Below, piece after piece: positions 1 through 33,585 of a stretch of DNA of 34,860 nt; position 1 is the first letter of the stretch, and each line of letters begins with the position of its first letter. Below the pieces are notes generated by a model, which worked only from the letters and a program-made list of their open reading frames with translations, was not told the origin of the DNA and ran no database searches. The position numbers and the translations under genes are program-made. The DNA comes from Deltaproteobacteria bacterium (lineage in GTDB: Bacteria; Myxococcota_A; Polyangia; Nannocystales; Nannocystaceae). Location: positions 1 through 34,860 of the forward strand of contig CANLQR010000018.1 in assembly GCA_947492135.1 (NCBI GenBank), written 5' to 3'.

Positions 1-390
1 GGCCCGATGCTGACCTGGGAGGTCATCACCGCGAAGAAGAAGGCCGCCGACGACCAGGCTCGCGTGCGCAACATGATCGAGAACGCGCCGGTCAACGTGA
101 TGTTCTGCGACACCGACTGTGTGATCCAGTACGTCAACGAGACCTCGAAGAAGACCCTGCGCACGCTGCAGCAGTACCTGCCGATCCAGGTCGACAAGCT
201 GGTCGGCGCGAGCATCGACGTGTTCCACAAGAACCCCGCGCACCAGCGGAGGCTGCTCGCCGACCCCAAGAACCTCCCGCACACGGCGGAGATCAAGGTC
301 GGGCCCGAGACGCTCTCGCTGCTGGTCAGCGCGATCCACAACTCGAGGGGTGAGTACGTCGGCCCGATGCTGACCTGGGAGATCATCACC
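1..390 (+). repeat. Tandem PAS-module duplication, 360-bp period
   Basis: Bases 1-30 and 361-390 are identical except at one position (g at 22, a at 382), exactly 360 bp (120 codons) apart. They encode the same PAS C-terminal strand and helix. This is direct evidence that the receptor grew by recent tandem duplication of a 120-residue PAS unit. More copies may lie upstream of the window. Confidence 0.8.
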
Positions 391-1401
391 GAGCGCCTCG
401 CGGCCAAGAAGCGCGAGGAGGACATGCTGACGGAGACGACCCAGGCGCGCGCCGATCTCCAGGCAAAGGTGGACAGCCTGCTCGCGACGGTCAACGCCGC
501 GGCCGGCGGTGACCTCACCGCGCAGGTCGGTGTCCAGGGCAGCGATGCCGTGGGTCAGCTTGCAGCAGGGCTCACGCAGTTCATCGGACAGATGCGCGGT
601 TCGGTCGGGGAGATCGGCAAGGCCGCGGCCATGTTGGCCACCGCAGCCGACGGCTTGACCGCCGTCTCGAACCAGCTCGCGGCCGGCGCGACCGAGACCA
701 GCGTCCAGGCGGGTGGGGTGGCGACTGCCTCCGAGCAGATCCGCAGCAGCATCGGCAACGTCGCCGCGGCCGCTGAGGAGATGAGCGCGACCGTGCGCGA
801 CATCGCCAGCAACGCCGGCGAGTCGGCAAAGGTGGCCGGCACGGCGGTCACGACCGCGCAGGACACCAACAGGATCGTGGCCAACCTCGGGGTCAGCTCG
901 CTCGAGATCGGCAAGGTCATCAAGGTCATCAGCGCGATCGCCCAGCAGACCAACCTGCTCGCGCTCAACGCCACGATCGAGGCTGCCCGCGCTGGCGAGG
1001 CCGGCAAGGGCTTCGCGGTGGTCGCCAACGAGGTCAAGGAGCTGGCCAAGGAGACCGCACGGGCGACGGAGGAGATCACCCAGAAGATCGAGGGCATCCA
1101 GGGTGACACCAAGAAGAGCGTCGAGGCCATCGGCGGCATCGTCACGGTCATCGAACGGATCAGTGGCTATGCGACGACGATCGCCGCGGCCGTCGAGGAG
1201 CAGGCGGCGAGCACCCGCGACATCGCGAAGAACGCGAACGATGCGGCCAGCGGATCGACCGCGGTCGTGACCAACATCGGCGGGGTTGCCTCCGCCGCCA
1301 AGGACGCGGAGAAGCAGGCCGCGGAGACCCAACGCGCGGCCCGGCAGCTCGAGGAGACCGCCGGCGCGCTCAACAAGCTGGTCGCGAAGTTCAAGGTCTA
1401 G
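1..1401 (+). CDS. Methyl-accepting chemotaxis protein with repeated PAS domains (5' end outside window)
   Basis: This is a chemoreceptor signalling protein that would control a CheA kinase. The frame is open from base 1, so the gene starts upstream; the ATG at 7 lies inside a PAS-end sequence and is not a credible start. In order, there is the tail of one PAS domain ([10 protein letters not shown]), a complete PAS domain (about residues 20-125) ending in the nearly identical [10 protein letters not shown], a HAMP-like helix pair (about 150-200), and a methyl-accepting signalling domain. The hairpin tip is the classic [20 protein letters not shown]. No membrane segment is visible, so a soluble cytoplasmic receptor is likely. 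There is no C-terminal NWETF-type tether for CheR/CheB. Two stem-loops follow the stop, which separates it from the downstream genes. Confidence 0.95.
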
Positions 1402-1415
1402 CTGGCCGATGAACA

Positions 1416-1451
1416 GATCTCGACCGCGGTCCATGGACCGCGGTCGAGATC
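1416..1451. terminator. Perfect 36-bp palindrome after the MCP gene
   Basis: The 18-base half gatctcgaccgcggtcca is followed by its exact reverse complement. As RNA it would fold into a 16-bp stem with a CAUG loop, 14 nt after the MCP stop codon. No T-run follows, so it would be an unusual terminator; a protein-binding palindrome is the alternative. Confidence 0.6.
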
Positions 1452-1465
1452 CCAAGAGTGACGTC

Positions 1466-1505
1466 GCGACTCCAAGTCCCCGCGCAAGTGGGGACGCGGA
1501 GTCGC
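1466..1505. terminator. Second stem-loop between MCP and MFS genes
   Basis: GCGACTCC (1466-1473) pairs with GGAGTCGC (1498-1505), and an inner CCCC (1478-1481) can pair with GGGG (1490-1493). Together with the upstream palindrome this gives two consecutive hairpins in the 150-bp gap. There is a short non-canonical downstream sequence and no strong T-run. Terminator or attenuator before the MFS-cheBR operon; its function is inferred. Confidence 0.4.
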
Positions 1506-1551
1506 TTATCCGTTGAATCACCCGAGTGATGCCCGAGAGGAGACCGACGCC

Positions 1552-2805
1552 GTGCAACCACAAGCCTGTCCAGCCAATCCACTTCCCGCGAGCACCGAGG
1601 TCGCCTCGGGTTCCACCATCGCGGTCGCGATGCCCTTTCTCACCATGCTCGGGGCCATGGCGATCGTCCCCGCGATCCGGCCCATGTTTGCGGTCAACGG
1701 CGCCGGTGAAGGCGCGATGCATGCCTTCATGAGCGTGAACATGTTAGGCGCCGCCATCGGCGCTCCGCTGGTCTCGTGGGGCGCCGACCGCCTCGGGGCC
1801 CACCGGCGGTTCGCGTTGTTCCTCGCGCTCGCCGACGCGCTACTCATCGGCGCCTGCGCACTGCCCCTAGCAGTAGGGCCGATGCTTCTGGTGCGCACCC
1901 TGCAGGGGGCAGCCAACGTCGGGGTGTTGTCGATCCTGATGGCGATGGCGACGCGATCGCCGGGCCAGACCTCGGGCACGCACTCGCGGCTGGGTGCCGC
2001 GGGCGCTGCGATGACCGCTGCGATCGCGCTCGGCCCACCGCTGGGCGGGCTGCTGCTGGGATGGGGGCCGCGCGCGCCGTTTTTCGCCGCCGCCGTCCTC
2101 AACGCCGTGGTCGCCCTCCTGGTGTGGACGCATGCGCGAGCGCCCGGGCCGCGGGAGCCGCGGATCGATCGCCGCGCGATCGTATCGCGCAGTCCGCTGT
2201 TGGCGGTGCCGATGGTGCTGGGCTTCACCGAGCGCTTCACGGTGGGTTGCTTCGTCGTGTCGTTCGCGATCTACGCCCACGAGGCGCTGGGCTTCACCGA
2301 TCGCGAGACCAGCCTGCGCTTCACGCTGTTCGTCGCCCCGTTCGCGCTCGCGATGTACCCGATGTGGAAGGCATCCGAGCGGTTCTCCCGCGCCGCGCTG
2401 ATGAGCGCCGGCGGGCTCTTCTACGGGGTCAGCTTCTTGCTACTCGCGGTGACCCGCGGCGCCGCCCTCGACGTGACCTTGATCCTGTGCGGACTGGCGT
2501 CGGCGATGATGTACGCGCCGTCGTTGTGCTACGCGGGCTCGTTGGCCCCTCCGGGTGGCCGGGCGACCTCGATGGCGCTGTTCAACGCCGCGGGCTGCCT
2601 GGGCATGATGCTCGGGCCGGCGGTGGCCGGGATCCTGTCGGCGGTCCTGCGCGACGCCGGCTACGGCGCCGCGATCCGCTACCCTGCGATCTTTGCCGTC
2701 GCTGGCGTTGTCCAGCTCGTCGCGATGCTGGCGCTCGCGCGTCCGATTGCGAAGCTCCGCGCCGCCGAGCGGGTCGCCGCCCTGCCGGAGCAAGTCCACG
2801 CATGA
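1552..2805 (+). CDS. Major facilitator superfamily transporter in the che operon
   Basis: A predicted 12-helix inner-membrane transporter of about 417 residues, the usual MFS length. Hydrophobic segments alternate through the whole protein. The MFS motif A lies between helices 2 and 3 as GAPLVSWGADRLGAHRRFA. The GTG at 1552 is preferred because GAGAGGAG (1535-1542) is well placed before it; an in-frame TTG at 1513 lacks a ribosome binding site. The stop overlaps the cheB start (ATGA), so transport and adaptation genes are translationally coupled. The substrate cannot be told from the sequence; drug efflux and metabolite export are both possible. A transporter inside a cheBR operon is unusual and might supply or remove the ligand sensed by the receptor (inference). 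Confidence 0.88.
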   Translation: MQPQACPANPLPASTEVASGSTIAVAMPFLTMLGAMAIVPAIRPMFAVNGAGEGAMHAFMSVNMLGAAIGAPLVSWGADRLGAHRRFALFLALADALLIGACALPLAVGPMLLVRTLQGAANVGVLSILMAMATRSPGQTSGTHSRLGAAGAAMTAAIALGPPLGGLLLGWGPRAPFFAAAVLNAVVALLVWTHARAPGPREPRIDRRAIVSRSPLLAVPMVLGFTERFTVGCFVVSFAIYAHEALGFTDRETSLRFTLFVAPFALAMYPMWKASERFSRAALMSAGGLFYGVSFLLLAVTRGAALDVTLILCGLASAMMYAPSLCYAGSLAPPGGRATSMALFNAAGCLGMMLGPAVAGILSAVLRDAGYGAAIRYPAIFAVAGVVQLVAMLALARPIAKLRAAERVAALPEQVHA

Positions 2806-3938
2806 CCACTTCCGCCCACGCAGCCGCACAGGCACCGTCGCCCGAGCTGGGCGCGCTCGTGCTGGCGAAGGCGGGTGCGTATCGCCGCCACATCGTCGCA
2901 GCGCTCGGGGAGCTGCCCGACGTGACCGTCCTGGGTGCCTTGTCGACGTGCGAGGCGATCGTCGACCGGGCGCGACGCAACGACGTGCAGTTCGTGCTCG
3001 TCGATTCCGATGACATCGACGTCGGCGGACTCGCTCGGGCGCTCGCGGGCCTCGATCGACCCGTCGCCTGGTTCGCGCTGCTCGAAGCGACCGAATCGGG
3101 TGCCAGCGTGGTCCTGCAGGGGGCGGCCGGCGTGATCCCGCGGTCCGCTGTGGGCGACACCGCCGGCCAGGCGGCACGCATTCGCTCGAGTCTGGGTACG
3201 CGTCTGCCCAGCAATCGACGCACGGAGATCGTCGCGCTTGCGCCGACCCCGTCCGGCCGCGCGAGTGAGGCGCCGCTGGGCTCGCCCTCGCCCTCGCCCT
3301 CGCCCTCGCCGATGATCGGACGAATCATCGCACCCACGTGCGGGCGTCGCGAGATCCTCGCGATCGGCTGCTCGACGGGCGGGCCGCCAGCGGTCGGCAC
3401 GCTGATCGCCAGCCTGCCGGCCTCGTTCGGTCTGCCGATCTGCATCGTCCAACACATGTCGGCCGACCACATGCCGTACTTCATCGAGAACCTCGGGCGC
3501 CGGCTGTCGCGGCCCGTCCTTGTGGCGCAGCACCACTTGCCGCTGGTGCCCGGCCACGTCTATGTCGCCGCCGGCGACCAGCACATGCTCCTGGGCCGTG
3601 ACGAGGGGGCCGCCCGTGGCGCGGGTCTGCACCTGCGCCTGAGCAAGGCGCCCGCCGAGCACAACTGTCGGCCGTCGGTCGATCCGTTCTTTCGCTCGGT
3701 GGCGGCCGTGTGCGGGGTGGCGGCGGTCGGTGTCGTGCTCACCGGCATGGGCTCGGACGGTGCGCTCGGCGCCCTCGCCATGCGTGAAACCGGCGCACCA
3801 GTGCTCGTTCAGAATGCCGAAACCTCCGTGGTCTGGGGGATGCCCGGGGCCACCTATCACCTCGGCGCCGCGTGTGCGGTGCTGCCACTCGAAGAACTGT
3901 CACCGGAGATCCTGCTATGGACGCTGCACTCAAGTTGA
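2802..3938 (+). CDS. cheB: Chemotaxis protein-glutamate methylesterase CheB with degenerate receiver
   Basis: It demethylates or deamidates receptor glutamates during adaptation. The C-terminal catalytic domain (about residues 182-375) has the complete triad: Ser191 in GCSTGG, His218 in VQHMS and Asp319 in GMGSDG. The N-terminal half (about 14-130) has the size and strand pattern of a response-regulator receiver. It keeps an Asp at the phosphorylation position (VLVDSDD, D68), but the N-terminal acidic pair is replaced by LAKAG, so normal phosphorylation is doubtful. The two halves are joined by a low-complexity Ser-Pro linker (about 161-170). It overlaps the MFS stop by 4 nt and the cheR start by 22 nt. 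Confidence 0.95.
   Translation: MTTSAHAAAQAPSPELGALVLAKAGAYRRHIVAALGELPDVTVLGALSTCEAIVDRARRNDVQFVLVDSDDIDVGGLARALAGLDRPVAWFALLEATESGASVVLQGAAGVIPRSAVGDTAGQAARIRSSLGTRLPSNRRTEIVALAPTPSGRASEAPLGSPSPSPSPSPMIGRIIAPTCGRREILAIGCSTGGPPAVGTLIASLPASFGLPICIVQHMSADHMPYFIENLGRRLSRPVLVAQHHLPLVPGHVYVAAGDQHMLLGRDEGAARGAGLHLRLSKAPAEHNCRPSVDPFFRSVAAVCGVAAVGVVLTGMGSDGALGALAMRETGAPVLVQNAETSVVWGMPGATYHLGAACAVLPLEELSPEILLWTLHSS
3281..3310 (+). repeat. Five perfect CTCGCC hexamers in cheB linker
   Basis: Exactly five tandem copies of ctcgcc encode the Ser-Pro repeats of the interdomain linker of CheB. The period is a multiple of three, so copy-number change would lengthen or shorten the linker without breaking the frame. 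Confidence 0.85.
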
Positions 3939-4738
3939 ACGAGCCGATCGAAGCACAGTTGTGGCCGATGGTCTGCGCCAAGGTGCGCGCGCTGTCCGGC
4001 GTGGTGCTCGGTGAAGACCAATCGTACCTGCTCACCCGGGTCGAACCCGTGGCGCGTCGGCTGGGATTTCCGGCGGTGTCCAACTTTCTGTCGGCCACGC
4101 TCGCGGGCGGGCGGCCCGAGCTCGAGGCCGCGCTGATCGAGGCCATGACCACCCACGAGTCGTCGTTTTTTCGCGACCCGCCGTACTGGGAGTCGCTGCG
4201 CACGACCATCGCGCCCAAGCTCGCCCTGCTCGGGCGCCCGATCCAGATCTGGTCGGCTGCGTGCTCGAACGGCCAGGAGCCGTACTCGATCGCCATGCTG
4301 CTGAAGTCGCACTTCCCCGCGCTGCAATTCGAGATCTGGGCGACCGACATCGCCCAGGAAACCCTGGGGCGAGCCAGCCGCGGCGTGTTCTCGCCGGTCG
4401 AGGTCGATCGAGGGCTGAGCAACGCGATGCGAGCGTCGTACTTCGACGCCGTGCCGGGCGGTTTGCGCGCGTCCGAGGCGCTGCGCGCGTGCATCCGGTT
4501 CGATGAGTACAACCTCCTGGGCGGGCTGCATCCGCTGCGACGCTTCGACATCGTGTGCTGCCGCAACGTCCTGGTCTACTTCGACGATGCCTCGCGGGAA
4601 CGTGTGATGCGACGCCTGGTCGACGCGCTCACGCCCGACGGCTGGCTCGGACTGGGCTCGACCGAGCTGCCGGTGCGTGAAATCGCGGGGCTCAAGCGCC
4701 TGGCCAACGGCGCCGGTTGGTTGGAGCGGGTGACGTGA
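3917..4738 (+). CDS. cheR: Chemotaxis protein methyltransferase CheR
   Basis: An S-adenosylmethionine-dependent methyltransferase that methylates receptor glutamates, opposing CheB. At 273 residues it has the usual two-domain CheR layout: an all-helical N-terminal domain (about 10-75) with the catalytic-region motif TTHESSFFRD (78-87), then the SAM-binding Rossmann domain with WSAACSNGQEPYSIAM (about 112-127) and the DIVCCRNVLVYFD strand near residue 215. The ATG at 3917 lies inside cheB, 22 nt before its stop, and the GNAT gene starts on its own stop codon (GTGA). There are no C-terminal TPR repeats and no CheW fusion. Confidence 0.95.
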   Translation: MDAALKLNEPIEAQLWPMVCAKVRALSGVVLGEDQSYLLTRVEPVARRLGFPAVSNFLSATLAGGRPELEAALIEAMTTHESSFFRDPPYWESLRTTIAPKLALLGRPIQIWSAACSNGQEPYSIAMLLKSHFPALQFEIWATDIAQETLGRASRGVFSPVEVDRGLSNAMRASYFDAVPGGLRASEALRACIRFDEYNLLGGLHPLRRFDIVCCRNVLVYFDDASRERVMRRLVDALTPDGWLGLGSTELPVREIAGLKRLANGAGWLERVT

Positions 4739-5346
4739 CTTCCTCGAGCTCCAGTCGGTCGGTCGCCGTGGGCGCGCTACCCGGTGCGGAATTCCTGCGC
4801 TTCGCCGAGGAGCATTCGTTCGATCCCGTCGACGGCACGCGCATCAAGTCGCAGTACTCCGCGGCGTTGCTCTCGGCCGCACCGGAATCCGGTGCGATCG
4901 GCTTGCGCGGCTGTGGCGATCTCGTCGCCGCCGCGAGCTATGGCATCGTGGGGTTGCCCCAGCCCAATGCCGTGTCGGCCCGCATCGACGTGGTCGTGAC
5001 GCCCCCGCACTGCCGCGGTCGCGGGCTCGCGCGGGCGGCGGTCGGCACACTCTTGCTCCGATTCATCGACCAGTTCGCCGATCGCCTGCGGCACGTATCG
5101 GTGGTGGCAGCCCACCCGACCATCGGGCGCATCGTCGAGGCGCTCGGGTTCACCGACGCCAAGATCGGGACCAAGTCGCCGGTGTTGCACCGGACCATCG
5201 ACGATCACACCCGGGTCGCCCTGCGCGTGGACGCCGAGCAGCTCCAATCCACCACGCTGCGGAACCTGCGGACCGAGTGTGCCCGCTGCATGTGGAAACG
5301 CGCCGCGCCGTGGTGCGGCCGGAAGGGTCCCGTCGATGGCCCGTAG
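4735..5346 (+). CDS. GNAT-family N-acetyltransferase in che operon
   Basis: A probable acetyl-CoA-dependent acetyltransferase of about 203 residues. Strand 4 and motif A are visible as RIDVVVTPPHCRGRGLARA, which contains the R-x-x-G-x-A pyrophosphate-binding turn (RGRGLA). A typical GNAT helix and the VEALGF strand (about residues 130-135) follow. GTG at 4735 overlaps the cheR stop by 4 nt and has GGAGCGG just upstream. The C-terminal tail carries a CxxC and extends past the usual fold. The gene overlaps the downstream deacetylase by 11 nt. Substrate unknown; operon position suggests a chemotaxis protein or a small signal molecule. The family call is firm, the role is inference. Confidence 0.75.
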   Translation: MTSSSSSRSVAVGALPGAEFLRFAEEHSFDPVDGTRIKSQYSAALLSAAPESGAIGLRGCGDLVAAASYGIVGLPQPNAVSARIDVVVTPPHCRGRGLARAAVGTLLLRFIDQFADRLRHVSVVAAHPTIGRIVEALGFTDAKIGTKSPVLHRTIDDHTRVALRVDAEQLQSTTLRNLRTECARCMWKRAAPWCGRKGPVDGP

Positions 5347-6280
5347 CGGCTACGCGTGGGATACCACGTTCCTCGGGCACCGGACCCTCACGGTGCATCC
5401 CGAGCATCCGGTTCGCGCCGAGGTCCTCGCGCCCGAGCGCATGCTCGTCGACGTCCCTGGCCTGGTGCGCGTCGCCGTCGATGCGGCGCTGGGATTGCCG
5501 GGCGTGCACCGCGTCCACGACCCCGTCTATATCGACGAGGTCGCCGATGCGTGCAGACGCGGGCGTCGCTCGCTCGACGGCGGCGATACGCTCATCGCCT
5601 CCGACTCGTTCGACGTCGCGCTGCGCTCTGCGGCCGCCGCACTGAGCGTGGTGTCGGCGGTGATGGGCGGCAAGCTCGACAACGGCTTCGCCGCGGTCCG
5701 GCCTCCGGGGCACCACGCGCTGGTCAACCGCGGCCGTGGCTTCTGCATCTTCAACAACGCGGCAATCTGCGCCCGCTTCGCCCAGACCGCGTTCGGGGCC
5801 GGCCGAGTGCTGATCGTCGACTGGGACGTGCACCCCGCGGACGGCACGATGAGCATCTTCTACGACGATCCCAGCGTCCACGTGCTGAGCGTCCACCAGG
5901 ACGGGATCCTCGGTAAGGGTGTCGGCGCCGAGGATCAGCGCGGTTGCGCTGCGGGCGAGGGCACGACCTACAACGTACCGCTGCCCGCCGGCACCGACGC
6001 GGTCTCGCACCTGACACGCTTCGGCGAGGCACTCGAGGTCGCCGCGGCGCGCTGTCGTCCGGATCTCGTGCTCGTGAGCTGCGGCTTCGATGCCCACGTC
6101 GGCGATCCGATCGGTGGTCTGCGGCTCGACGACGATCACTTCCGAATCCTGACCCAAATGGTCCGTCGCGTCGCGTTGCGCTACTGCGGCGGTCGCGTGG
6201 TGAGCATGCTCGAGGGCGGCTATCAGCCCGATATCCTGCGCCGCTGCGTTCGCATGCACCTCGAAGCTTTGCTCGACTAG
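5336..6280 (+). CDS. Histone deacetylase / acetylpolyamine amidohydrolase family protein
   Basis: A zinc-dependent deacetylase of class II HDAC type, 314 residues. Key motifs are all present: RPPGHHA (His126-His127, charge relay), VDWDVHPADG (zinc ligands Asp164 and His166), SCGFDAHVGDP (third ligand region), and LEGGY near the C-terminus, where the catalytic Tyr is expected. The ATG at 5336 has GGAAGGG eight bases upstream and overlaps the GNAT gene by 11 nt. Family members remove acetyl groups from lysines, polyamines or other amines. Adjacency to a GNAT suggests an acetyl write/erase pair acting in this signalling pathway (inference). cheX follows 21 bp downstream. Confidence 0.92.
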   Translation: MARSGYAWDTTFLGHRTLTVHPEHPVRAEVLAPERMLVDVPGLVRVAVDAALGLPGVHRVHDPVYIDEVADACRRGRRSLDGGDTLIASDSFDVALRSAAAALSVVSAVMGGKLDNGFAAVRPPGHHALVNRGRGFCIFNNAAICARFAQTAFGAGRVLIVDWDVHPADGTMSIFYDDPSVHVLSVHQDGILGKGVGAEDQRGCAAGEGTTYNVPLPAGTDAVSHLTRFGEALEVAAARCRPDLVLVSCGFDAHVGDPIGGLRLDDDHFRILTQMVRRVALRYCGGRVVSMLEGGYQPDILRRCVRMHLEALLD

Positions 6281-6301
6281 TCCACTCGCACGGAGGTACA
6301 C

Positions 6302-6835
6302 GTGAAACTCGGCATCGATGACAAGCTCGTGGGTGCGTTGGTGGCGGCCACCAACGACGCCTTCTCCATGGCCGGGATCAGCCCACTGCCGGTCGGCGCC
6401 AGCCGGATCGCGACGCCCCGTCACGAGTTCTCCGTCATCGTCGGCATGGTCGGGCGCAACAGCGGCAGCATGACGCTCAACCTGTCGAAGTCGGCGATGT
6501 TCTTCGTCGCCCAGCGTCTCACCGAGCAGCCGCAGAACGAGATCACGGAGGAGAACATCGACGCCGCCATGGAGCTCGGCAACATGCTCGCCGGCGGTGT
6601 CAAGGAGCAGCTGCTCGGATCGGCGTACGAGATCGCCCAGATCTCGCTGCCATCGATGATCGCGTCGCACCGCTACGACGTGATGTTCGCACGCGGCATC
6701 CTGACGGTTTCGGTCGAGTTCGAGCTCACCGAGATGCCGATGACGGCATTCGCCGATCGCTACTTTTCGCTGTCGTTGTCCCTGCTCAAGGGCGCGGGCC
6801 AGTCGTTCGACACGCCGCGGGACGCCGCGGCGTAG
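6302..6835 (+). CDS. cheX: CheX-type CheY-P phosphatase
   Basis: A single-domain protein of 177 residues matching the CheC/CheX/FliY phosphatase signature D-x3-E-x2-N-x22-P exactly: DAAMELGN followed, 22 residues after the Asn, by the Pro of SLPS. CheX dephosphorylates phospho-CheY and ends the signal. The GTG start at 6302 is fixed by a strong GGAGGT at 6292-6297. It is the last plus-strand gene of the operon. It meets a second CheX-like gene on the minus strand only 19 bp after its stop. Confidence 0.9.
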   Translation: MKLGIDDKLVGALVAATNDAFSMAGISPLPVGASRIATPRHEFSVIVGMVGRNSGSMTLNLSKSAMFFVAQRLTEQPQNEITEENIDAAMELGNMLAGGVKEQLLGSAYEIAQISLPSMIASHRYDVMFARGILTVSVEFELTEMPMTAFADRYFSLSLSLLKGAGQSFDTPRDAAA

Positions 6836-6854: not shown

Positions 6855-7349
6855 TCACGCTGCGCGCGGGTGGTGGGTGCCGACGAGCAACGACAGCACG
6901 CACGGAACCTCGCCGACGGAGAACTCGACATGACGGCCTTGGGTGCGCCGGATCGGTCCCCACGCGCCCTCGATGAACAACGGGAGCCCGAGCGAGAGGG
7001 CGCCGTCCTCGGCCGCCAGCGCGGTCTTGAGCGCACCCGCCAAGATGTTCACCAGCTCGCCGATGGAGTCCTGCACGTCCTCGGGCGACAGCGACTCGAG
7101 CTCGGCGGCGTCCATGCCGAGCATGGCGCCGGCCAGGCGCCGACACCCATCCGCGGTCGAGGACAACCCGACGCATGTGGTGTTCTGTTCGCTCGACAGC
7201 GACAGCACGCTGCCGCACACCCCGTGGTCGGGTCGCTGGGCCTCGTCCTGCGGTGCCGGCTCGAGGCCCAGCGCCGACGACGACACCGTCATGAAGCAGT
7301 GCTTGGCGATCTCTGTCCAGCGATCGAGTTGTGTTGAATTTTGGTCCAT
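6855..7349 (-). CDS. Second, divergent CheX/CheC-like protein
   Basis: A 164-residue protein with the phosphatase signature DSIGELVN (D-x3-E-x2-N), followed by a Pro 22 residues later, one short of the canonical spacing. The rest of the protein (LPLFIEGAWG, VEFSVGEVPCVLSLL) fits the alpha/beta layout of CheX/CheC. It is convergent with the operon cheX and divergent from cheY, 118 bp away. It might act on this CheY or on another regulator, or be a non-catalytic binder. Start chosen at the ATG at 7349; a GAGG lies about 11 nt upstream on the minus strand. Confidence 0.8.
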   Translation of the reverse strand: MDQNSTQLDRWTEIAKHCFMTVSSSALGLEPAPQDEAQRPDHGVCGSVLSLSSEQNTTCVGLSSTADGCRRLAGAMLGMDAAELESLSPEDVQDSIGELVNILAGALKTALAAEDGALSLGLPLFIEGAWGPIRRTQGRHVEFSVGEVPCVLSLLVGTHHPRAA

Positions 7350-11290: not shown

Positions 11291-11431
11291 GTGCGGCCAG
11301 GGTAGCAACTGCTCGTGCGCGCGCATCGATAGGGCGTGCCGGCGCCGCGCAGGAGCACGATGGCACCCGAAGGACACGCTCGCGTCAGGGAAAGGCGGGT
11401 TCGAAGGGGGAAAGCCGGTCTCGGCGAGATC

Positions 11432-11607
11432 CGCAGCGTGATGGCTCCGCGGGCGAACTGGTGCCCGAGCGCGCCGGTGGATGCGGTGGAGATCGATCTC
11501 GCGGATCTCGGGACGCCGGGGGAGCACGCGTTCTCGTTCGCGATCGAGGGGATCGCGGACGGGGTGTGCGGCCGACGTCGGCGATCGTCTACGCGTACGG
11601 CGGGTGA
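11432..11607 (+). pseudogene. C-terminal relic of a PNGase-F-like secreted domain
   Basis: The gap 11291-11755 holds no intact gene. One frame reads MAPRANWCPSAPVDAVEIDL and then GEHAFSFAIEGIADG. After a shift by one frame it continues RPTSAIVYAYGG and stops at 11607. The R-x-N-W-C-P start, the hydrophobic strands and the final VYAYGG resemble the C-terminal beta-sandwich of peptide-N-glycosidase F-type proteins common in secreted myxobacterial proteins. The gene is 5'-truncated and frameshifted. Family assignment is from memory of the motif. Confidence 0.4.
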
Positions 11608-11755
11608 GCCACCGAGCGAAGCAGCCCACTTCGGGCCGCACATACCAAATCCGCTCACCTGGGGCGTGATGGCAGTCCTGCTCCCGCCGCTCCGCCTCGC
11701 CCGCCCTTCGTTTGTTCGGGATTCGGGTGGACCCGGGGGTGCACTGCAGCCCCCC

Positions 11756-12706
11756 ATGCGTACTGCCCCGATCGCTTACTTCCTGCTTCCACTCGCGCTG
11801 ACCCTCGCGAGCGCCTGTGGTGACACCGACAACGATCCGTCCTCGACTGACACCGACGACAACACCGATTCCGCCTCGACGCTGCCCGACACGAACGAGG
11901 ATTCCACCGAGACCGCGAGCGCCACCGCGACCGAGGACTCCGATCCCTCGATGACCGACAGCGCGACCACGCAGGATCCGACCGTCGCCGACTCGGGCGA
12001 CACCTCGAGCGACTCGACCACCGGCAACATCGGCGAGCCCGGCACACCCGTCGACCTCGGCGACGCCGGCAACTTCGCAATCCTCGCGAAGTCTGGAATC
12101 TCCACCGTGCCGCCGTCCGTGATCACCGGTGACATCGGCGTATCGCCGATGTCCGCCACCTCGATCACCGGCTTCTCCCTCACCCTCGACGCGACCGAGG
12201 CCTTCTCCACGTCGAGTCAGATCACCGGCAATGTCTACGCTGCCGACTACGCCGAGCCGACGCCCACCAACCTCACCACCGCGGTGCTCGACATGGAGCT
12301 CGCATTCACCGATGCGGCCGGTCGTGCACCCGACGTGACCGAGCTCGGCGCGGGCAACATCGGTGGCATGACGCTCGAGGCCGGCGTCTATCGCTGGGGC
12401 ACGGGTCTGTTGATTCCCACCGACCTGACGCTCGACGGCAACTCGACCGATGTTTGGATCTTCCAGGTCGCCCAGGACCTCAACATGAGCAGCGCAACGA
12501 GCATCGTGCTCACCGGTGGCGCGCTCGCGGACAACGTGTTCTGGCAGGTGTCGGGCTCCGTCGACATCGGTACGACCGCGCACTGCGAGGGCAACGTCCT
12601 GTCGATGACGACCGCGCGTCTCGGCACCGGCGCATCCATCGTCGGCAGGCTGCTCGCGCAGACCGCGGTCACACTCGACGGCAACACCGTCGTCGAAACG
12701 CGCTGA
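11756..12706 (+). CDS. Ice-binding-like (DUF3494) lipoprotein
   Basis: A secreted lipoprotein of 316 residues. The signal peptide and lipobox (LASAC, Cys18 or so) are followed by a Thr/Asp/Ser-rich linker (about 20-95), then a DUF3494 beta-solenoid domain. Recognisable parts are LGDAGNFAILAKSGIS, VITGDIGVSP, and the terminal GASIVGRLLAQTAVTLDGNT. Family members include ice-binding adhesins, but many in soil bacteria have no proven ice activity. A role as a surface adhesin or solenoid scaffold is equally possible. The ATG at 11756 starts straight into the signal peptide. Confidence 0.88.
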   Translation: MRTAPIAYFLLPLALTLASACGDTDNDPSSTDTDDNTDSASTLPDTNEDSTETASATATEDSDPSMTDSATTQDPTVADSGDTSSDSTTGNIGEPGTPVDLGDAGNFAILAKSGISTVPPSVITGDIGVSPMSATSITGFSLTLDATEAFSTSSQITGNVYAADYAEPTPTNLTTAVLDMELAFTDAAGRAPDVTELGAGNIGGMTLEAGVYRWGTGLLIPTDLTLDGNSTDVWIFQVAQDLNMSSATSIVLTGGALADNVFWQVSGSVDIGTTAHCEGNVLSMTTARLGTGASIVGRLLAQTAVTLDGNTVVETR

Positions 12707-24167: not shown

Positions 24168-25550
24168 TCACTTCGCCGGGCTCGGCTTCACGAGCCGACC
24201 CATGAACAGGATCGTTCCGGTCTTCGTGTCGCGCACGAGGAACAAGAACGGATGCTTCGCGACGAACGGCACCGGCTCGTGGGTCGGTGCCCCTCCGACC
24301 GTCATCGACGCCGTTGTCGCGGCTGCGGCCTCGGTGCCGGCCTCGTCCACGGCGAGGAACGCCTTGTGGTAGGCCTCGGAGATCACGAGCTGATCGGCCT
24401 TCGGCGCCATCGCGGTGAAGTCGGCCTTGCTCGCATCCCACGCGGTGACGAGGCCGAGCTTCTCGAGTGGCTTGCGCAGCTCGATCGCGGCCTCGGGCTC
24501 GATGCGAAAGCGCGGCACACCGAGCGCGACGCGGGTGTACGTTGCGGCGGTGAGCCAGCGATCGAGCGCGTCTGCAGTGAGCGCCTTCTCGACGTCGGCG
24601 AGGCCCTTAGGATGGTCGGGTAGCACGATCACCATCGAGTACTCGCCGCCGTTGTACGTCATCTCGAGGATGCGGGCCTTCGCGTCGGCGGCGGTGCCGA
24701 GCCTGTACTGATCGACGCGGTGCATCATCCTCACCGTCGTCTTGCTATCGCCAACGAAGGGCTCGTCCCTCGTCTGTGACTCCTCGAATCCCCCGGCCCA
24801 CTGCGCCTTGAAGTAGATCGCGTTGACGAGCACGAGGCGCGTGTCCGCTGTGACGCCCGAGGCCGGCAGCAGGTCTTTGATCCTGTCCTTGGTCTGCTTG
24901 GCGACCCAGAGGTTGATGTGTGTGCGGGCGTCGGCGCTCGCGCCCTTGAAGTCCAGCGACTCGAGCGGCGCCGCGAAGATGTCCTGGGTGAGCGCGAGGT
25001 ACGGCGCCTCGAACGTGACGGTCTTCTCGCTGAAGAGGCGATTGGCGACCGCGAGCTCGAGGCCACCGGTCGCGGACGACCAGCGCGTCAGCGTGGCCTT
25101 CAGCGCCGGGTGCAGCGTCTCGCCGGCCGGCAGGTGGAACGTCTTCGCGATCTCGTCGGCCGTCGCACCCTTCGCGCCCGCGTGCACCATCGCGAACGCG
25201 AGTGCCATGCTCGCGGGCGACACGAAGAGGTTGCCGGGCTTCGCACCGAGCTCGCGATGGATGTCGATCGCGAAGGTGTTCATGCCCTTCGCGAGCGCGA
25301 GCGCGGTCTCCGGAGCGACGGTCGGCGGCGGTGCGTCGACCTTGGTGTAGGGCTGCTTCGCATCGATCTTGGTGTCGAGCTTCGCGTCCAGCTTCTTCGC
25401 GTCGAGCTTCTTGTCGTTCTTCTCCTTCACGTCTGCCTGCGCGGACTTCTTGTCATCCAGCTTTGCCGTGGTGTCCGTGCCGGAGCTCGGACATGCCGTG
25501 AGCGACACGACCACCGAGAGTGTGACGAGAGCGCGGACGGGCTGCGACAT
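24168..25550 (-). CDS. Serpin-family protease inhibitor, lipoprotein
   Basis: A 460-residue lipoprotein. The signal peptide ends at SLTAC (Cys20) and is followed by a highly charged Lys/Asp repeat linker (KLDAKKLDAKLDTKIDAK). The serpin fold (about 75-458) has NLFVSPASMALAFAM, LVLVNAIYFKAQWAGGF, and the C-terminal HPFLFLVRDTKTGTILFMGR. The reactive-centre hinge is GTEAAAATTASMTVGG, which keeps the small residues needed for loop insertion, so it should be inhibitory. Counting from the hinge puts P1 near Val/Gly, suggesting an elastase-like target. AGGAG precedes ATG 25550. Likely role: protection from self or prey proteases at the cell surface (inference). Confidence 0.95.
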   Translation of the reverse strand: MSQPVRALVTLSVVVSLTACPSSGTDTTAKLDDKKSAQADVKEKNDKKLDAKKLDAKLDTKIDAKQPYTKVDAPPPTVAPETALALAKGMNTFAIDIHRELGAKPGNLFVSPASMALAFAMVHAGAKGATADEIAKTFHLPAGETLHPALKATLTRWSSATGGLELAVANRLFSEKTVTFEAPYLALTQDIFAAPLESLDFKGASADARTHINLWVAKQTKDRIKDLLPASGVTADTRLVLVNAIYFKAQWAGGFEESQTRDEPFVGDSKTTVRMMHRVDQYRLGTAADAKARILEMTYNGGEYSMVIVLPDHPKGLADVEKALTADALDRWLTAATYTRVALGVPRFRIEPEAAIELRKPLEKLGLVTAWDASKADFTAMAPKADQLVISEAYHKAFLAVDEAGTEAAAATTASMTVGGAPTHEPVPFVAKHPFLFLVRDTKTGTILFMGRLVKPSPAK

Positions 25551-25604
25551 CGCGCTCCTTCTATCCGTTTCGGCGCGCGTGATCCAGCGCAGCGATTGCA
25601 ACCG

Positions 25605-31595: not shown

Positions 31596-33509
31596 CTACT
31601 CGCAGGTGCCCTGCGGATTACCGCAGTCGCCGGCCCCCGCACACTCGCCGTGCTCGCACTCGGCGTCGAAGCGACAGCGCTCGCCGTCGTGCAGGCCACC
31701 GGGACAGTAGGGATCACCGCACTGCTCGGGATACTCGGAGGTGCGCTGGTAGTGCGACGGCCCCGCGACGATGCCGCCGAGATCCGCGGGGATGTCGGCC
31801 GGCACTGGCCCCGAGCGCGGCGCGTTGGCCCGTTCCCACATCCGAACGACGTCGTCGGCCGAGCTGCGCAAGGGCGCGGTGTCGGTGCCGAGCACGTCGA
31901 GGTCGTCGAGCAGCTCGGTCAACAGGCCGATGTGGCCCAGGCCAAGCTCGTCGAACGCGCGCCCCAGCGGTGGCGAGCCTGACTCCTGTTCGGTCTTGGC
32001 CTGGCATTGGGCCTCGATCGAAAACGATGCCGAGCAGGCGTCGGGCCCGAAGCGCGGCCGGGTTTGCTGGATGAACCCGTTGAGGTCCGAACCCATCGCC
32101 ATCGCCACGCCCAGACCCATCCGACCGTAGTCATAGGCCTGCGCGAACGATCGGCTCGAGCCGTGGCAGGTGTTGTCGACCATCGACGGCTCGTAGGTGT
32201 CGACCTCCTCGTGTGCAGTGCGAAGCCCGAAGACGCCGCCGGTTTCGCGCAGCATCTCGATCGCCCACGCCGGGGTCGTCTTTTCTTCCTTCTCCTTCTC
32301 CTCGACCATGATCTCGCGAAAATGACCGTGGGAGATGTACAGCGGGTAGTAGTCGTTCTCGACGGCGATGCCGTGTAGATCGCGGACGCTTTGCTCGGAC
32401 AGGTGGGCCGCGTCGACGAGCATGCCGCGGTCGAACATCGCCTGAACCAGCTCGCGTCCGTCGGCCGTGAGGCCCAGGACGTTCTTGCAGTTCGCATCGA
32501 CATCGAAACCCAGCGTGACGTCGTTGGTGGTGATCCCGCAGTCTTCGTCGATGTGGCAGTTCTCGGCGTACTGCGCGACGTGGAAGATGGTGTTGTGTGG
32601 CGCCGCGCCGGCGAAGCGACTGTCGAGCTGGTGGGCGATCTGCATGGTTCGGACGCCGAGCTCGTAGAACTCGTCGAGCTGCGGGCGCCAGTCGCCGTCC
32701 TTCATCAGATGCGAGGCTTCGATGCTGAGGATGAACGCGAGCTTGCCCTGGGCGACGATACGCCGGGCATCCTCGGGGGTCCGCGCGATCTCGACCCAGT
32801 CGTGCTCTTGGTCGAAGGTGTTCGCCAGCACGAGCTGGCGCTTGACGTCGGCCATCTCGTCGCACTCCGGGTGTTCGACGTTCTCGTCGGGCAGTGCGCG
32901 ACACAGCCAATCCAGCGAGACCGCAGAGATCACCTCGACGCGGAGCCCAGCCTCGTAGGCGGCGTACAGGTGATCTTCCCAGACCTGTTGGTGGGCGATG
33001 GCGTCCCATCGCGGCCAACCGATGAAGTCGGGCCAGCCGCTGGCACGGTCGGCGTGCGCACCCGTGTCACCCTCGGATCCAGGCACGGCGCTGACGAACT
33101 CGCCGATCAGCCCGCCGCCGCCCGCGACGATGGCCCCGACCAAAGGCACGAGCGTGGAAAGCTCTTCGAGCGGCACATCGGGGCACGTGCCCAGCAGCGG
33201 CGCGAGCTCGTCGCGAAACCGGCCGTGGTCACCCGGCTCACCGCCGTCGCACGGCGCGAGCGCGGCCTCGCCGGGGCCCTTGTACGAGCCGTGAAACCAC
33301 CCACCGCCGTAGCCCTCCTCCGCGAACATGTGCAGATGCAGATCGGCGACGCCGACCAGCGGGGGCAGGGGCTCACCACCGTCGGTGCCGGCGGTGCTCG
33401 ACCCGTCGGAACCCGCTGAGGCCTCGACCGCAGGCGGGTCCGACTCGCGACAGGCACCGAGCAGACCCATCGCCATCGCCATCGCAACTCGAACAGTGAG
33501 GCGCTGCAT
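31596..33509 (-). CDS. Membrane-dipeptidase-like (M19 / amidohydrolase superfamily) lipoprotein
   Basis: A 637-residue lipoprotein with lipobox LLGAC (Cys20). The TIM-barrel metal site is visible in order: ADLHLHMFAEEG (HxH, 58/60), FILSIEASHLM (Glu bridge), LVDAAHLSEQSVRDLHGI, YISHGHFRE and MAMGSDLNGF (final Asp). These match M19 dipeptidases and related amidohydrolases. It is much longer than a normal M19 (about 350-400) because of a long N-terminal loop region and a C-terminal Cys-rich tail (CGDPYCPGGLHDGERCRFDA, ECEHGECAGAGDC). Substrate unknown; located outside the cytoplasm by lipobox. Confidence 0.88.
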   Translation of the reverse strand: MQRLTVRVAMAMAMGLLGACRESDPPAVEASAGSDGSSTAGTDGGEPLPPLVGVADLHLHMFAEEGYGGGWFHGSYKGPGEAALAPCDGGEPGDHGRFRDELAPLLGTCPDVPLEELSTLVPLVGAIVAGGGGLIGEFVSAVPGSEGDTGAHADRASGWPDFIGWPRWDAIAHQQVWEDHLYAAYEAGLRVEVISAVSLDWLCRALPDENVEHPECDEMADVKRQLVLANTFDQEHDWVEIARTPEDARRIVAQGKLAFILSIEASHLMKDGDWRPQLDEFYELGVRTMQIAHQLDSRFAGAAPHNTIFHVAQYAENCHIDEDCGITTNDVTLGFDVDANCKNVLGLTADGRELVQAMFDRGMLVDAAHLSEQSVRDLHGIAVENDYYPLYISHGHFREIMVEEKEKEEKTTPAWAIEMLRETGGVFGLRTAHEEVDTYEPSMVDNTCHGSSRSFAQAYDYGRMGLGVAMAMGSDLNGFIQQTRPRFGPDACSASFSIEAQCQAKTEQESGSPPLGRAFDELGLGHIGLLTELLDDLDVLGTDTAPLRSSADDVVRMWERANAPRSGPVPADIPADLGGIVAGPSHYQRTSEYPEQCGDPYCPGGLHDGERCRFDAECEHGECAGAGDCGNPQGTCE

Positions 33510-33585
33510 TTCGTTTCGACCGTAGTCACACGGCGCAGCGGTGGTCAACGCGGCGGTTGTGCAGCCGTGTGCACGACGCCGAAGA

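Follow-up and report, generated by a model that had tools for sequence, protein, structure and literature searches.

A GNAT acetyltransferase and a zinc-dependent deacetylase encoded together with chemotaxis genes in Polyangia suggest a sensory pathway with its own acetylation switch

A matched pair of genes, encoding a GNAT-fold acetyltransferase and an HDAC-type deacetylase, was found within or beside chemotaxis clusters of three Polyangia genomes, which suggests an acetylation switch particular to the sensory pathway that these clusters encode. The window, that is, the whole stretch of 34,860 nucleotides that was analysed, is the complete contig G000:C18 of a draft genome (7.97 Mb, 754 contigs, 90% complete). 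Seven genes follow one another on its + strand in the order MCP-MFS-cheB-cheR-GNAT-HDAC-cheX (7-6835; Table 1), with overlaps of 4 nt between MFS and cheB, 22 nt between cheB and cheR, 4 nt between cheR and GNAT, and 11 nt between GNAT and HDAC. The cheR stop at 4738 and the GTG start of GNAT at 4735 share the letters GTGA, and the ATG of HDAC at 5336 precedes the GNAT stop at 5346, with the HDAC frame ending at 6280. The overlap lengths hinge on the chosen start codons, and the stops and frames are independent of that choice. The preliminary description of this DNA had given the same overlaps for GNAT with HDAC and with cheR, which are exact by coordinates, and its proposal of an acetyl writer and eraser tied to a chemosensory operon is supported by the folds, the overlaps and the conserved linkage described below.

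Table 1. Features of the window, with the evidence for each assignment
Feature	Position	Strand	Evidence or remark
PAS-containing methyl-accepting chemotaxis protein (MCP)	7..1401	+	PF00015, E 7e-32; 5' part lost to contig start
Two strong hairpins, between MCP and MFS	1416-1451, 1466-1505		MFE -68.5 kcal/mol, z -8.1 versus shuffles
MFS transporter	1513..2805	+	PF07690, E 3e-32
CheB methylesterase, degenerate receiver domain	2802..3938	+	PF01339, E 7e-55
CheR methyltransferase	3917..4738	+	PF01739, E 1e-45
GNAT-fold N-acetyltransferase with C-terminal CxxC...PWC motif	4735..5346	+	Motif and AlphaFold fold
Zinc-dependent deacetylase (HDAC), class II / cluster 1-like motifs	5336..6280	+	PF00850, E 2e-73
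CheX-type protein (CheY-P phosphatase family)	6302..6835	+	PF13690, E 3e-14
Second CheX-type protein	6858..7349	-	PF13690, E 3e-10
CheY response regulator, canonical active-site residues	7468..7830	+	PF00072, E 3e-25
Ice-binding-like protein, Ser/Thr/Asp-rich linker	11336-12706	+	PF11999, E 1e-72
Serpin (protease inhibitor, uncommon in bacteria)	24168-25601	-	PF00079, E 9e-105
Protein with Peptidase M19 (membrane dipeptidase) domain	31596-33548	-	

The deacetylase scored 247.7 bits against PF00850 (cut-off 27.9), and its matches in the PDB include HDAC6, HdaH-type enzymes and other deacetylases. Residues D164, H166 and D252, which we take to be the zinc ligands, as well as the His pair H126-H127 and Tyr296, were placed by the standard HDAC numbering logic, and an alignment showed all of them to be invariant across the three orthologues. 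This logic relies on the second Asp and the His of DxDxH, the Asp of GFDA, the double His, and the Tyr of GGY (see also PMC11532494). Judged by sequence, the active site is intact, with all zinc and catalytic residues present. The RPPGHH and EGGY motifs, which a survey of bacterial deacylases tied to robust deacetylases (PMC11532494), are invariant in the three enzymes. Their gatekeepers (PIG, PVG, and PLG) are hydrophobic, and the PEG gatekeeper of the polyamine-specific HDAC10 is absent from all three. Since bacterial HDAC-fold polyamine deacetylases (cluster 4) combine RPP/EGGY motifs with a hydrophobic PIS gatekeeper (PMC11532494), the gatekeepers seen here are compatible with either lysine or polyamine substrates. 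With 314 aa, the window enzyme is short, and it could be aligned to the acetylpolyamine aminohydrolase 3men from residue 76 only, its N-terminus being unaligned; the polyamine-specificity L2-loop, which together with a head-to-head dimer marks the bacterial cluster 4 enzymes (ApaH), is thus probably absent. A quick tree grouped the three deacetylases in a single clade with SH-aLRT 100, and the family's resident HDAC paralogue, found at G000:C398 in the source genome, fell outside it. Plasmid homologues reached 43% identity at best. Deacetylases with 38% identity are also present in ANME-1/Methanophagales and a related archaeon (L075, L077-L081), with no che genes nearby.

For the acetyltransferase, no Pfam family exceeded its curated cut-off (best GNAT family E 0.027), and Acetyltransf_3 and Acetyltransf_1 scored 15.6 and 13.8 bits, both below cut-off. 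The three orthologues have in common an acetyl-CoA binding motif, R94-x-x-G97-x-A99, of the Q/R-x-x-G-x-G/A type. An AlphaFold model (pLDDT 86, pTM 0.84) placed the structural elements in GNAT order, and the listed PDB fold matches of the model are acetyltransferases (probability 1.00, best E 7e-7). Because both motif and fold were found, the protein is regarded as a divergent member of the superfamily despite its Pfam scores. Enzymes that acetylate proteins and enzymes that acetylate small molecules both appear among the listed fold matches, SpeG and phosphinothricin acetyltransferases included, and the substrate features of the two enzymes do not discriminate between protein lysine and small amines. 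The CxxC...PWC tail (window 5278-5319), possibly a metal or redox site, is retained in the orthologues of loci L122 and L063, even at 27% overall identity; weak GNAT matches elsewhere (L025, L027-L033) are partial and stop short of this C-terminal Cys motif.

Profile searches revealed that GNAT and HDAC orthologues co-occur in the same three of 318 Polyangia genomes and in no others, with a few divergent copies possibly missed, as the searches scored each genome's best first-look candidates. The three genomes are distantly related, belong to three different families of the class, and are all fragmented drafts. One of them, the Polyangia MAG G365 (contig JAUHXR010000159.1), was the single further genome with both genes in a phylum sample of 379 genomes, and also the sole close relative in a contig scan with two short peptide patterns, a scan of limited sensitivity; the other, G589, was added by the profile search of the 318 class genomes. 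In G589, which represents another family, the same six genes occur in the same order (MCP-MFS-cheB-cheR-GNAT-HDAC) with identities of 50-78%, the run consisting of cheA, cheW, globin-PAS-MCP (78%), MFS (70%), cheB (50%), cheR (69%), GNAT (52%), and HDAC (70%). The GNAT and HDAC genes of G365 share 4 nt and are divergent to cheA-cheW-globin-PAS-MCP, and no MFS relative was found within the 20 kb seen. The cheA and cheW genes adjoin the MCP gene in both relatives, and the window contig begins inside its own MCP gene. An orthologue of cheR is present in two of the three genomes bearing the pair. The preliminary description had called for a search of conserved gene order and had named its absence in relatives as a refutation; this refutation failed, since the window order was found in G589 and the pair in G365. 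Conservation in these two genomes also led us to reject chance placement or an assembly accident as the origin of the pair.

The pair is sparsely distributed. The 29 genomes of the same family contained no GNAT orthologue, the nearest being a match over 45 residues in G009, and their other HDACs stayed at or below 45% identity. Relatives of CheR, CheB, MCP or CheX were found near none of 93 other HDAC loci inspected, 48 of which had flanks of at most ~1.5 kb. Relatives of the globin/PAS-MCP were identified in six genomes (G027, G026, G349, G035, G451, and G445); the G027 cluster reads cheA-cheW-MCP-cheB-cheY-cheR, and similar che sets surround the receptors elsewhere, wherever the available contigs extend far enough. 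No MFS, GNAT or HDAC relative was found in the clusters of these six genomes, the G445 contig being only 5.4 kb long and showing little, which indicates that the pair is an accessory of some members of the receptor group. A pair common to every relative was rejected on the same grounds, together with the lack of orthologues in same-family genomes.

The window MCP is 78% identical to that of G589 and 55% to that of the same-genus G027, while the window CheY shares 82.5% identity with the CheY encoded next to the G027 cluster, against 52% with that of G589; the second CheX also has a 48% relative beside the G027 che cluster. The simplest reading is that the MCP-to-HDAC unit arrived from a G589-like lineage and was inserted beside a resident cheX2-cheY. 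GNAT and HDAC would then have moved, and been retained, with the che genes, which would point to a common task. No U-tract terminator was found at the two near-perfect hairpins between MCP and MFS (1416-1505), which may be a terminator or an attenuator; the transcript of the pair may, thus, begin at MFS or be attenuated upstream of it.

The window MCP partly matches the Aer2 model of NCBIfam, and its orthologues carry N-terminal globin plus PAS domains, which may bind heme. The pair-bearing clusters are of one kind, probably gas-sensing. The G365 receptor (L063 860-4279, - strand) contains a truncated bacterial globin (PF01152), and the G589 receptor (L122 13819-16089, - strand) a classical globin (PF00042); the joining of homologous PAS-MCP parts to different globins suggests sensor-domain swapping.

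The CheB protein of the window gave no Response_reg match in Pfam. The receiver domains of both the window and G589 (window 2802-3250; L122 12150-12572) have lost the acidic pair as well as the conserved Lys, and in G589 Glu takes the place of the phospho-Asp, whereas the receivers of G027, G026, G349, and G365 are canonical. A CheB model built on two sequences, whose low confidence (pLDDT 56) limits its use to domain order, matched full-length CheB. The degenerate receivers of G000 and G589, as opposed to the canonical ones in pair-less clusters of the same genus, leave room for another control. Covalent changes of other kinds can govern pseudo-receivers, lysine acetylation of GlnR being one case (PMC12632262), and by analogy an acetylation input at CheB is possible for G000 and G589, but not for G365. 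Because G365 combines the pair with a canonical CheB receiver, phospho-control of CheB is not lost wherever the pair occurs, and the idea that the pseudo-receiver accompanies the pair was rejected.

The overlapping genes, conserved order, exclusive co-occurrence, intact deacetylase site and GNAT fold support a pair dedicated to the pathway. We tentatively favor, at somewhat less than even confidence, an AcuA/AcuC-like GNAT/HDAC pair that acts on protein acetylation in this chemosensory pathway. The acetyltransferase would write, and the deacetylase erase, acetyl groups on at least one lysine of the pathway proteins, with the receptor, CheA, the CheB pseudo-receiver or CheY as candidate targets, by the logic through which AcuA and AcuC set the acetylation of acetyl-CoA synthetase. 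With a globin-PAS-MCP receptor at the head of the pathway, such a switch would connect the acetyl-CoA level, via the writer, with a heme-gas or redox signal, and would tune the gain or adaptation of the receptor array. A bolder proposal, that acetylation encoded in the operon forms a second adaptation or gain channel, which replaces the CheA-to-CheB phosphorelay feedback after the CheB receiver lost its capacity for phosphorylation, acts on that receiver or on the chemoreceptor, and links acetyl-CoA status to the heme-gas signal, is considered doubtful.

The pair might instead run a small-molecule cycle, in which GNAT acetylates an amine (a polyamine, drug or signal), the MFS transporter moves it, and HDAC deacetylates it, with the receptor or cluster detecting, or reacting to, the same compound. 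The MFS gene lies between MCP and cheB in both G000 and G589 (the 70% orthologue), and its presence in the conserved operon of two of three genomes keeps such a role in consideration; the best NCBIfam matches of the transporter are to multidrug/tetracycline-type efflux proteins, although all fall far below cut-off. The SpeG and phosphinothricin acetyltransferase fold matches, and the resemblance of PIG to the PIS gatekeeper of RPP/EGGY-bearing bacterial polyamine deacetylases (PMC11532494), point the same way. However, the 20 kb seen of G365 lack an MFS relative, the gatekeepers are not the PEG of HDAC10, and the short deacetylase probably lacks the polyamine-specificity loop. The acetyl-polyamine turnover offered as an alternative in the preliminary description is, thus, only weakened, by the missing HDAC10-type gatekeeper, and keeps the support of the transporter gene; overall we judge a small-molecule cycle to be rather unlikely, yet the most credible of the competing explanations.

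It is less probable still that the pair serves general metabolism, such as control of acetyl-CoA synthetase, and owes its place in the che operon only to co-expression or to having been carried along in a transfer. Such a function is served by acuABC, the known operon of a GNAT and an HDAC (PMC13121692), and the present operon looks horizontally moved, so that passengers could occur; but the pair stays with chemosensory genes in three families and two arrangements, neither acsA nor acuB adjoins it, and the resident paralogue at G000:C398 could do the general work. Control of CheY binding to the flagellar motor was envisaged on the model of E. coli, where acetylation influences the binding of CheY to FliM and CobB reverses the modification (PMC2883070), and the window CheY does have a canonical active site. 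However, no FliM above cut-off was found in G000, G365 or G589 (drafts 90-98% complete; one weak 23-bit match in G000), and PilM of type IV pili is present in all three, making a flagellar-motor effect unlikely. The CheY-FliM route was, therefore, rejected as highly improbable, and no evidence was found for Lys104 of CheY as the target. Type IV pili, gliding or a response unrelated to motility are likelier outputs than a flagellar motor.

The covalent modifications that chemosensory operons are known to encode are methylation and phosphorylation. If the dedicated pair acts on pathway proteins, as we favor, this would apparently be the first acetylation encoded with a chemosensory pathway instead of being taken over from general metabolism; with the candidate substrates numbering fewer than ten, the purpose of Che-protein acetylation could then be tested directly. 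Searches of open-access text returned no report of a GNAT-HDAC pair in a che operon, which is weak evidence of novelty.

Comparison with described systems places the cluster among several partial likenesses. The Aer2/McpB (Che2-type) and globin-coupled receptors share PAS/globin receptors with their own CheA, CheW, CheB and CheR, but we know of no described member with an acetyltransferase/deacetylase pair or an MFS gene. A possible further parallel is offered by operons of the blt-bltD type, which combine efflux with a polyamine acetyltransferase and bring MFS and GNAT genes together; in the window, CheB and CheR are encoded in between and HDAC after. A 2026 review of aerotaxis does not mention acetylation (PMC13401364). 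With the cluster 1 classical bacterial deacylases (KpHdaH; class II HDAC6-like) the window HDAC shares the RPPGHH and EGGY motifs, zinc ligands, His pair and catalytic Tyr, but it belongs to its own long-stemmed clade, has HPADG in place of the HHGNG or HHGQG of HDAC6, and differs in genomic setting. The acuABC operon of Bacillus, in which the AcuA GNAT and AcuC HDAC act on AcsA, likewise encodes a writer and a zinc HDAC eraser together (PMC13121692), whereas here neither AcuB nor acsA is encoded beside the pair, the window GNAT gene overlaps cheR in a chemosensory operon, and the neighbors are cheR and cheX in the window, cheR in G589, and a divergent cheA in G365; the likeness is one of logic, and the present operon does not belong to the acuABC type. 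Acetylation is also linked to chemotaxis in E. coli, but there it involves general enzymes encoded apart from the pathway, the NAD-dependent sirtuin CobB and output through FliM (PMC2883070), in contrast to the linked genes, the zinc deacetylase, and the lack of a FliM above cut-off that characterize the present system.
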